From assembly GCA_005240015.1 (NCBI GenBank), contig SBBV01000513.1:1-12906 (forward strand): DNA of 12,906 nt, written 5' to 3'. The stretch comes from Candidatus Odyssella thessalonicensis (GTDB lineage Bacteria > Pseudomonadota > Alphaproteobacteria > Bin65). Positions 1-3,107 of this stretch are shown here, one piece after another. The notes below the pieces were generated by a model. It saw only the letters and a program-made list of their open reading frames with translations. It made no database searches and had not been told where the DNA came from. Position numbers and translations under genes: made by a program. Numbering within the stretch: the stretch's first letter is position 1; each line of letters opens with the position of its first letter.

Positions 1-104
1 CTCAACGCGCTGGCGGCGCCGCGCTTCTTCTTGCCGGCGGCGTCGGCGCTCTCGCCCGGCGGCTCGGCCGGCGGCAGCGTCTTGCTGGAGGGCTCCTCGG
101 TCAT
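1..104 (-). CDS. corC: N-terminus of probable CorC/TlyC-type CBS-domain protein (partial)
   Basis: Only the first 34 codons are in the window; the gene continues past base 1. The visible peptide starts MTEEPSSKTLPPAEPP and is polar, proline-rich and ends in a basic KKKRG stretch, with no domain of its own. The identification rests on position: in many proteobacteria the gene directly after ybeY encodes a CBS-pair/CorC_HlyC protein linked to divalent cation efflux, and such proteins often begin with a disordered charged tail. The ATG (102-104) overlaps the ybeY TGA (101-103) in an ATGA arrangement, which supports this start and translational coupling. The family assignment is inference, because no CBS or CorC motif is visible. 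Confidence 0.5.
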   Translation of the reverse strand, partial: MTEEPSSKTLPPAEPPGESADAAGKKKRGAASAL

Positions 105-607
105 GGCGCGCGCCCGTTCCGGGCGGCCGCGCGATAGGGATGGGGCACGCCGAGGCGCCTGAGGATGCGGACCTCGTGCCCTTCCATGATGCGGGCCGCA
201 TGCGCGCGCTCGTGATCGAAGCCGAGGAGATGCAGCGTGCCGTGCACGAGCATGTGCGCCGCGTGGCTGGCGATGCGCTTCCCTTCGGCCTTGGCCTCGC
301 GCCGGATCGTGCGATAGGCGAGCACGACGTCACCGAGCAGCACCGGCTTTTCCTTGGCGCCGTTTTCGCGCTCCAACGGGAACGAGAGCACGTTGGTGGG
401 CTTGTCCTTGCCGCGATGGGCGCGGTTCAAGCGGCGGATGAACGGATCGTCGGCGAGTACCACGCCGACCTCGGCGGGGCGGCGCAAGCCCACGCGCGGG
501 TCGTCGAGCACTGCGCCGACCACGCGCGCGGCGAAGCGCTCGGCGCGCGGCAACGCCTCCGCCCAGGCGGCACAACGCAGTGCCACGCTGACACGTCTGG
601 CCGCCAT
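101..607 (-). CDS. ybeY: Endoribonuclease YbeY (16S rRNA 3' maturation factor)
   Basis: Encodes a 168-residue metal-dependent single-strand RNase of the UPF0054/YbeY family, which acts in the cytoplasm on 16S rRNA maturation and ribosome quality control. The diagnostic zinc motif H-x3-H-x5-H is clear as HGTLHLLGFDH (His122, His126, His132). Upstream there is the family's TNVLSFP strand (71-77) and a DPFIRRLNRAHRGKDKPT region that precedes it in most YbeY proteins. Length is normal for the alphaproteobacterial form. The ATG at 605-607 shares one base with the phoH stop (TGATG) and the stop overlaps the next start, so translation is probably coupled along miaB-phoH-ybeY-corC. PhoH/YbeZ is a known functional partner of YbeY, which fits the adjacency. 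Confidence 0.95.
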   Translation of the reverse strand: MAARRVSVALRCAAWAEALPRAERFAARVVGAVLDDPRVGLRRPAEVGVVLADDPFIRRLNRAHRGKDKPTNVLSFPLERENGAKEKPVLLGDVVLAYRTIRREAKAEGKRIASHAAHMLVHGTLHLLGFDHERAHAARIMEGHEVRILRRLGVPHPYRAAARNGRAP

Positions 608-1736
608 CAGGCCCGCCCGCGCTTCTTCTGCGCCGTGGGAAGCAGATTGAGCTCGGCCTGGCGGCCGTCGCGCTCGTCGTAGGCGCGCGCGATACGGGCC
701 ACGAGCTCGTGGCGCACGACGTCGGCATGGCCGAAATGGATGAACGCGACGCCCTGCATGCCTTCCAAGATCTCGACCGCGTCGCGCAGGCCCGAGGTGA
801 CGCCGACCGGCAGGTCGATCTGCGTCAGGTCGCCGGTGACCACCATGCGCGAGTTCTCGCCCATGCGCGTCAGCAGCATCTTCATCTGCATCGGCGTGGT
901 GTTCTGGGCCTCGTCGACGATGATGTAGGCGTTGGCGAGCGTGCGCCCGCGCATGAAGGCGAGCGGCGCCACCTCGATCTCGCCGGTCTCGAGGCGCTTG
1001 GTCACCTGATCGCCCGGCAGCATGTCGTAGAGCGCGTCGTAGAGCGGGCGCAGATAGGGATCGACCTTCTCGCGGATGTCGCCGGGCAGGAAGCCGAGCC
1101 GCTCGCCGGCCTCGACCGCCGGGCGCGAGAGGATGATGCGCTCGACCTGCCCCGCCTGCAGCATGGTGACGGCCATGGCCACCGCGAGATAGCTCTTGCC
1201 AGTGCCGGCCGGCCCCAGCGCCACCACGAGCTCGTACGCCTTGAGCGCGCGGATGTAGTTCGCCTGGTTGGGCGTGCGCGGCACGATCTGGCGCTTGCGC
1301 GTCCCGATCACGAGGTCGCCACTATGGCGATCGCCGCGCCGCTCGGCCGGCGCCGCCTGATCGGGGCTCGCGACGTGCTGCTGCGCGAAGCGGACCTCGG
1401 CGTCGACGTCACCATCGTCGCCAAGGGCAATCGTCTCACGATCGCCGGCACCGACGACAAGCGCGAAGCCGCGCGCGTGGCGCTCTCGCAGCTCTACACG
1501 CGCCTCAAGCGCGGCCGCGAGATCGAGCGCGCCGACGTCGACGCCGAGGTCCGCTTCGCGCTTGTCGTCGGTGCCGGCGATCGTGAGACGATTGCCCTTG
1601 GCGACGATGGTGACGTCGAGCGCCTTCTCGATTCGCGCCAGATGCTCGTCGTGCGCGCCACAGAGCAGGCGCACGAGCGCATTGTCTTCGAACTCGAGCG
1701 ATAGGGCGGTGGCGCCGGCAGCGGTGGGCAGCGCAC

Positions 1737-1740
<4 letters not shown>
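607..1740 (-). CDS. phoH: PhoH/YbeZ family ATPase with scrambled N-terminal segment
   Basis: A 377-residue PhoH-like P-loop ATPase, cytoplasmic, probably acting with YbeY on RNA. The ATPase domain is intact: Walker A GPAGTGKS (176-183), Walker B IIVDEAQ (273-279), the [13 protein letters not shown] motif and [10 protein letters not shown]. The GTG start (1738-1740) overlaps the miaB TGA as GTGA, and the stop abuts ybeY. The oddity is the N-terminal region. Residues 1-63 look native (to DDKREA) and native sequence resumes at [10 protein letters not shown] (111 onward). Residues 64-110 do not match the family, because the DNA encoding them is an antisense copy of this gene. The native linker (ARVALSQLY...GREIERA, about 21 residues) lies on the opposite strand at 1471-1533. 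Net change is +78 bp, in frame, so the ancestor was probably about 351 residues. The ORF is open, but the N-terminal domain is probably misfolded if the sequence is real. Confidence 0.92.
1383..1410 (-). repeat. Left arm of overlapping 28-bp inverted repeat in phoH
   Basis: Bases 1383-1410 are the exact reverse complement of 1534-1561, with mismatches immediately outside. This arm is the correctly oriented copy and encodes the DVDAEVRFA region where the native PhoH sequence resumes. It overlaps the left 67-bp arm by the 8 bases TCGACGTC (1403-1410), which marks the first strand-switch point. Confidence 0.96.
1403..1469 (+). repeat. Left arm of perfect 67-bp inverted repeat in phoH
   Basis: Bases 1403-1469 are the exact reverse complement of 1553-1619, checked base by base, with mismatches immediately outside (1402 and 1470). 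The spacer is 83 bp. Identity extends through all wobble positions, so this is DNA-level copying and very young. It encodes the PhoH segment around [14 protein letters not shown] in plus orientation. Confidence 0.97.
1405..1560 (+). other. Inverted duplicate of phoH N-terminal coding sequence
   Basis: Read on the plus strand, these 52 codons give the uninterrupted native PhoH segment from [15 protein letters not shown] through [12 protein letters not shown] to DVDAEVRFA. The flanking gene is on the minus strand, so this block is inverted relative to its own gene. Both of its ends (DVTIVAKGN...KREA and DVDAEVRFA) are also present in the correct orientation on either side, so it is a duplication plus inversion that replaced about 64 bp of native middle sequence. 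It lies within a longer open plus-strand frame but has no start signal or gene context of its own, so I do not call it a gene. Confidence 0.93.
1534..1561 (+). repeat. Right arm of overlapping 28-bp inverted repeat in phoH
   Basis: Exact reverse complement of 1383-1410, and the inverted copy of the DVDAEVRFA codons. It overlaps the right 67-bp arm by the 9 bases GCTTCGCGC (1553-1561), which marks the second strand-switch point. Confidence 0.96.
1553..1619 (-). repeat. Right arm of perfect 67-bp inverted repeat in phoH
   Basis: Exact reverse complement of 1403-1469. This arm is the copy in the correct orientation for phoH and encodes residues from about Asp42 to Ala63 on the minus strand. Its inner end, GCTTCGCGC at 1553-1561, is one of the two microhomologies at which the sequence switches strand. 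Confidence 0.97.

Positions 1741-3107
<1,367 letters not shown>

Follow-up and report, generated by a model that had tools for sequence, protein, structure and literature searches.

Within the phoH gene of this contig, an inverted block is enclosed by perfect inverted repeats, and the reading frame runs through it without a stop. Did copying switch strands in the living cell, is the block an established part of the protein, or was it made after the DNA had left the organism? The window, i.e. the whole stretch of 12,906 nucleotides that was analysed, is an entire contig of an assembly of 3.52 Mb (624 contigs, 74% complete, 0.08% contaminated) and has a GC content of 68%. Its first genes follow the run ybeY-phoH-miaB, the usual gene order in alphaproteobacteria:

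101-607, minus strand: ybeY
607-1740, minus strand: phoH reading frame, 377 aa, GTG start, open
1737-3050, minus strand: radical-SAM gene with TRAM domain, miaB by order and domains

The phoH frame matches PF02562 with 315 bits, and the PhoH ATPase domain (residues 152-355) is intact; the interruption is confined to the N-terminal part of the protein and leaves this domain untouched. A whole-genome search of the same assembly finds no second, colinear phoH copy.

Structure of the inverted block

Two perfect inverted repeats interlock within the frame:

1403-1469, plus strand: left arm of the 67-bp perfect inverted repeat, partner 1553-1619
1553-1619, minus strand: right arm of the 67-bp perfect inverted repeat, partner 1403-1469
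1383-1410, plus strand: left arm of the 28-bp perfect inverted repeat, partner 1534-1561
1534-1561, minus strand: right arm of the 28-bp perfect inverted repeat, partner 1383-1410
1403-1561, minus strand: inverted block, 159 bp including both microhomologies, reverse complement of native phoH
1553-1561, minus strand: junction 1, the first met on the coding strand, 9-nt microhomology GCGCGAAGC
1403-1410, minus strand: junction 2, where copying returns to the coding strand, 8-nt microhomology GACGTCGA

The native codons missing from the phoH frame are read on the plus strand inside the block. In the colinear gene, the microhomology GCGCGAAGC recurs as its inverted complement at a distance of 92 nt downstream, and both junctions connect segments less than 160 bp apart. 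In four-point notation the order is 3-1-4-2, with inverted microhomologies of 9 nt and 8 nt. With the block returned to its native orientation, a colinear gene of 351 aa is restored, relative to which 64 bp have been replaced by 142 bp (+78 bp) and 21 residues by 47 (counted by eye in the alignment), with the frame still open. Random switches of the same kind in phoH leave an open frame in 2,577 of 20,000 trials (13%) and keep the frame in 6,647 of 20,000. The window's other inverted repeats, as far as the 25 longest listed of 160 pairs go, measure 25-37 nt at 70-88% complementarity, which matches chance expectation at 68% GC. The DNA folding of 1383-1619 (z = -18.6) merely restates the inverted repeat.

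Comparison with relatives

A BLASTN comparison of window positions 601-1800 with a genome of the same genus (G001), whose phoH is colinear, returns five pieces, two of them only 23-24 nt long. On the phoH strand of G001, positions 601-1410 match at 90% and positions 1551-1775 at 86%, whereas positions 1399-1561 match the opposite strand at 89%. The native 21 residues are present, where the window has 47, in all 14 relatives that were aligned (from 120 homologues listed, 8000 scored), and the residues removed by the change are conserved among them. With residues 60-116 as query, no protein of a 5.8-billion protein set is found at E 1e-3 (727 candidates); the window's own phoH protein is absent from both homologue lists, and same-species carriers clustered with it may be hidden. 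A further genome of the species was not found. Across 61 genomes, 55 have a phoH match, and the match pattern indicates that the matching family members align in two pieces around the block; a second genome of the family (G002) has no phoH match at the locus in this search. On this sequence comparison, the colinear phoH is the ancestral state and the block the derived one. Since G001 has diverged by about 10% and yet not one position differs between the arms of either repeat (67 and 28 bp), the event is either very young or not biological.

The observation of the earlier note and its geometry are borne out by these comparisons. Both repeats lie where it had placed them and are perfect, and the codons it had located on the plus strand are those that G001 matches in inverted orientation. 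Its exchange of 64 bp for 142 bp in an open frame agrees with the colinear reconstruction, its 47 residues in place of about 21 are seen against the 14 relatives, and its two strand switches at interlocking inverted microhomologies of a native ancestor have the right geometry with G001 as outgroup. Relatives with the same 47-residue block, which it had named as grounds for abandoning the claim, occur neither among the 14 aligned sequences nor in the protein set.

One homologue, P0001 (373 aa), was considered as a carrier of the block and rejected: its extra length is a GDRHSGDRH-type linker. In this PhoH homologue, the GDR/HSGDRH linker that separates the ATPase domain from the N-terminal part is expanded. 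The nearest phoH relatives carry Rhodospirillales-type labels. Sequence JAEULD010000159.1 is labelled Candidatus Odyssella (Holosporales), yet its matching stretch has 71% GC; Odyssella has a low GC content, and the label may be wrong.

Fold-back repeats at contig ends

Apart from the window, 80 further contigs of its assembly were picked by place and not by content; together with the window, 70 are readable and 11 masked. The base totals including masked N contigs are 474,528 and 452,753, the readable totals 444,636 and 446,288. We define a terminal fold-back as a perfect inverted repeat of at least 14 bp that starts at most 4 nt from a contig end and has its partner within 1.2 kb. Such fold-backs are present at 13 of 140 contig ends of the window's assembly (70 readable contigs, 445 kb), with arms of 80, 74, 60, 59, 59, 58, 43, 37, 26, 23, 21, 20 and 15 bp. 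None of the 67 ends of G001 (41 contigs, 38 of them readable) is of this kind, and of the 38 ends of G002 (20 contigs) one is, with an arm of 73 bp; pooling the two genomes gives 13/140 versus 1/105 (Fisher p = 0.005). Restricted to arms of at least 35 bp, the counts are 8/140 versus 1/105 (p = 0.08). Two ends are doubtful, namely L174 (a dispersed repeat by sight) and L133 (15 bp only), and without them 11/140 remain (p = 0.015 versus the other genomes). Random internal positions in the same 70 contigs carry a fold-back in 31 of 20,000 cases (p ~1e-18 versus the ends).

Perfect fold-backs of 37-80 bp lie exactly at the ends of contigs L134, L181, L120, L171, L180, L124, L168 and L169. Three of the thirteen terminal fold-backs (L134, L181 and L180) were compared with G001, and all three are colinear with it at 87-88% from the inner boundary inward; their outer arms match G001 only in inverted orientation, within the same stretch. 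The two G001 matches of L134 overlap by about 7-14 nt, which fits a junction microhomology; those of L181 and L180 are without clear overlap. Arms of variable length that end exactly at the contig end would indicate a chimeric read end, since a true genomic repeat would have no reason to stop there. As far as tested, the contig-end fold-backs of the window's assembly thus appear to be chimeras, judged from their sequence. The single case in G002, at positions 1-161 of L250 (G002:C240), is a 73-bp contig-end fold-back in another genome of the same family, and suggests that the artefact is not limited to one assembly. A literature search on fold-back ends of metagenome contigs, partly judged by title, found no paper.

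Internal repeats and repeat families

The sampled assembly has nine perfect repeats whose arms measure at least 35 bp: eight are terminal and the ninth is that in phoH. A search of the remaining 432 kb of readable contigs finds no second internal chimera, and at the loci of 79 named relatives (527 kb) perfect arms reach 20 bp at most. The sample of the window's assembly contains 11 other internal repeats of at least 25 bp. For 8 of them the core recurs in other sampled contigs; the remaining three, one each in L126, L132 and L182, can be assigned to dispersed families by eye.

We note a dispersed element of about 160-220 bp with nested inverted repeats, GAACCGCGAAGCGGTTC outside and CAACCC..GGGTTG inside, of which four diverged copies are recognized by sight (L126 3828-3984, L166 1436-1654, L170 987-1199 and L182 514-728). 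It looks like a real intergenic repeat family. Other short dispersed inverted-repeat families of the genus are of the TCATCCTGAGCGAAGCGAAGGAT type and the GTAGGGGCG..CGCCC type, found at L121 4909-5015, L158 9007-9115, L180 1288-1821 and elsewhere, as well as in L202, L211 and L218 of G001.

Origin of the inverted block

We consider it probable that the phoH block is a strand-switch chimera which arose outside the cell and was assembled into the contig, and not a mutation of the organism. It is the presence of contig-end fold-backs in the assembly together with the same signature in phoH that makes a chimera the more likely cause. The locus has a nearby inverted junction and short complementarity, as in-vitro chimeras do, and its assembly holds further chimeras above controls. 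The origin would lie in DNA amplification, or in library fragmentation and end repair. At junction 1, a 3' end would have annealed to a nearby inverted microhomology and been extended, running forward to b and backward from d; junction 2 would stem from another molecule, or from a further switch in the same one, running backward to a and forward from c. What lies inverted in the middle of the contig would then be the native locus seen from the other strand. Two kinds of chimeric molecules of this sort would overlap perfectly over about 140 bp and could be joined by an assembler, and the joined path would pass once through each native adjacency and, in addition, through the two chimeric ones. 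A molecule with a double switch would not be required, although a single one would suffice. The cell itself would possess an ordinary phoH of about 351 residues.

The excess of fold-back ends (13/140) over G001, G002 and the internal controls argues for such a chimera, as do the company of the phoH repeat among the long perfect repeats (eight terminal ones besides it), the identity of its arms in the face of about 10% divergence from G001, and the lack of the block from every protein of the 5.8-billion set. Inverted chimeras at short complementary stretches are described in PMC1855051, PMC10908179 and PMC8674242. Against it stand the open frame, which at 13% by chance favours a selected real allele up to about eight-fold, and the fact that the other chimeras are single fold-backs at contig ends, with no second internal one in 432 kb; two junctions at one locus would have had to survive assembly. 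The open frame and the lack of a second internal case also speak for a real and recent mutation, in which the template would have been switched twice in inverted orientation (3-1-4-2), at the 9-nt and 8-nt microhomologies and within a single replication event, so that the gene was rewritten. A single inverted fragment copied from nearby explains the whole change, with the ancestor known from relatives; the geometry is clean, with microhomology at both junctions, the colinear outgroup marks the block as derived, and, in contrast to the other fold-backs, the event is 1.4 kb away from the contig end. Switches of the double inverted kind are known from E. coli (PMC3161906). The chimeric fold-backs in the same assembly count against a mutation, as does the occurrence of the block in 0 of 14 aligned relatives and in no member of the protein set (in which the own protein is unlisted), and the sampled population would have to carry the variant as its main allele despite the loss of conserved residues. 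We regard a real mutation as rather unlikely, while giving it serious weight. The template-switch mutation of the earlier note is thus upheld in its geometry and derived state, whereas its occurrence in the organism is not supported, given the fold-backs at 13 of 140 contig ends; of the two options it had left, a very recent event or a chimera, arm identity agrees with the pair and the contig-end fold-backs make the chimera the likelier one.

Two further explanations carry very little probability. That the PhoH proteins of this lineage acquired the block long ago as a fixed, functional insertion is favoured by the open frame only, and it is highly improbable: the block is absent from G001 and the 14 aligned relatives, identical repeat arms leave no time for drift, and none of 727 candidates is a homologue of the block at E 1e-3. 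For the relatives examined, all of which are without the block, an old fixed insertion is ruled out. Still less credible is a mobile or regulatory inverted-repeat element inserted in phoH. The genome does possess dispersed families of short inverted repeats, but the block is phoH's own sequence inverted, its core recurs in no other sampled contig, and a whole-genome search finds it here only. The comparison with G001, in which the block corresponds to inverted phoH sequence, refutes a mobile or repeat element.

If the block is an artefact, metagenome bins may hold strand-switch chimeras with open frames that pass as novel protein segments, and a perfect inverted repeat within a gene, in a bin whose contigs also end in fold-backs, would serve as a cheap alarm. 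If it is a true mutation, a conserved bacterial gene would have been rewritten over 47 codons in a single recent step with the frame left open: a 159-bp miniature, in a wild bacterium, of the kilobase inverted triplications of E. coli, and a case of protein innovation through strand switching caught shortly after its occurrence.

Comparison with known systems

In yeast, template switching alters coding genes, changing up to five neighbouring residues (PMC8604942). The four-point template switches described for great apes (PMC7954356) resemble the phoH case, as one inverted 2-to-3 fragment explains the latter and yields perfect inverted repeats; the majority patterns there are 1-4-3-2 and 3-2-1-4, and the label 3-1-4-2 was not found in the main text of that article. 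In starving E. coli, double inverted switches, or inverted triplications, of 5.2-42.6 kb have microhomologies of 3-30 bp and are tied to amplification (PMC3161906). The phoH locus shares with these the two inverted switches, the microhomology at both junctions and the same copy order. It differs in that its block measures 159 bp within one gene. Among the marks of a tandem inversion duplication or inverted triplication of enteric bacteria it has the two inverted junctions with 3-30 bp microhomology and lacks the kilobase-sized unit.

Artefacts of library preparation form a second group. They arise at inverted repeats, for which one study used a criterion of at least 8 bp (PMC10908179), and end repair gives hairpin-derived chimeric reads (PMC8674242). 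Like these PDSM/MICR chimeras, the phoH case involves pre-existing inverted repeats of at least 8 bp, inverted intervening sequence and both-strand reads; the published ones are minority reads in human clinical libraries and not, as here, an assembled contig. A third comparison is offered by multiple displacement amplification (MDA), where 85% of 475 chimeras are inverted, many are joined at 2-21 complementary nt, and the segments lie mostly less than 10 kb apart (PMC1855051). MDA is the amplification of that study and may not be that of the window's sample, and its chimeras consist of two segments, whereas phoH has two junctions 142 bp apart in one contig. The likeness lies in phoH segments less than 10 kb apart, complementarity of 9 and 8 nt at the junctions, and several cases per data set.
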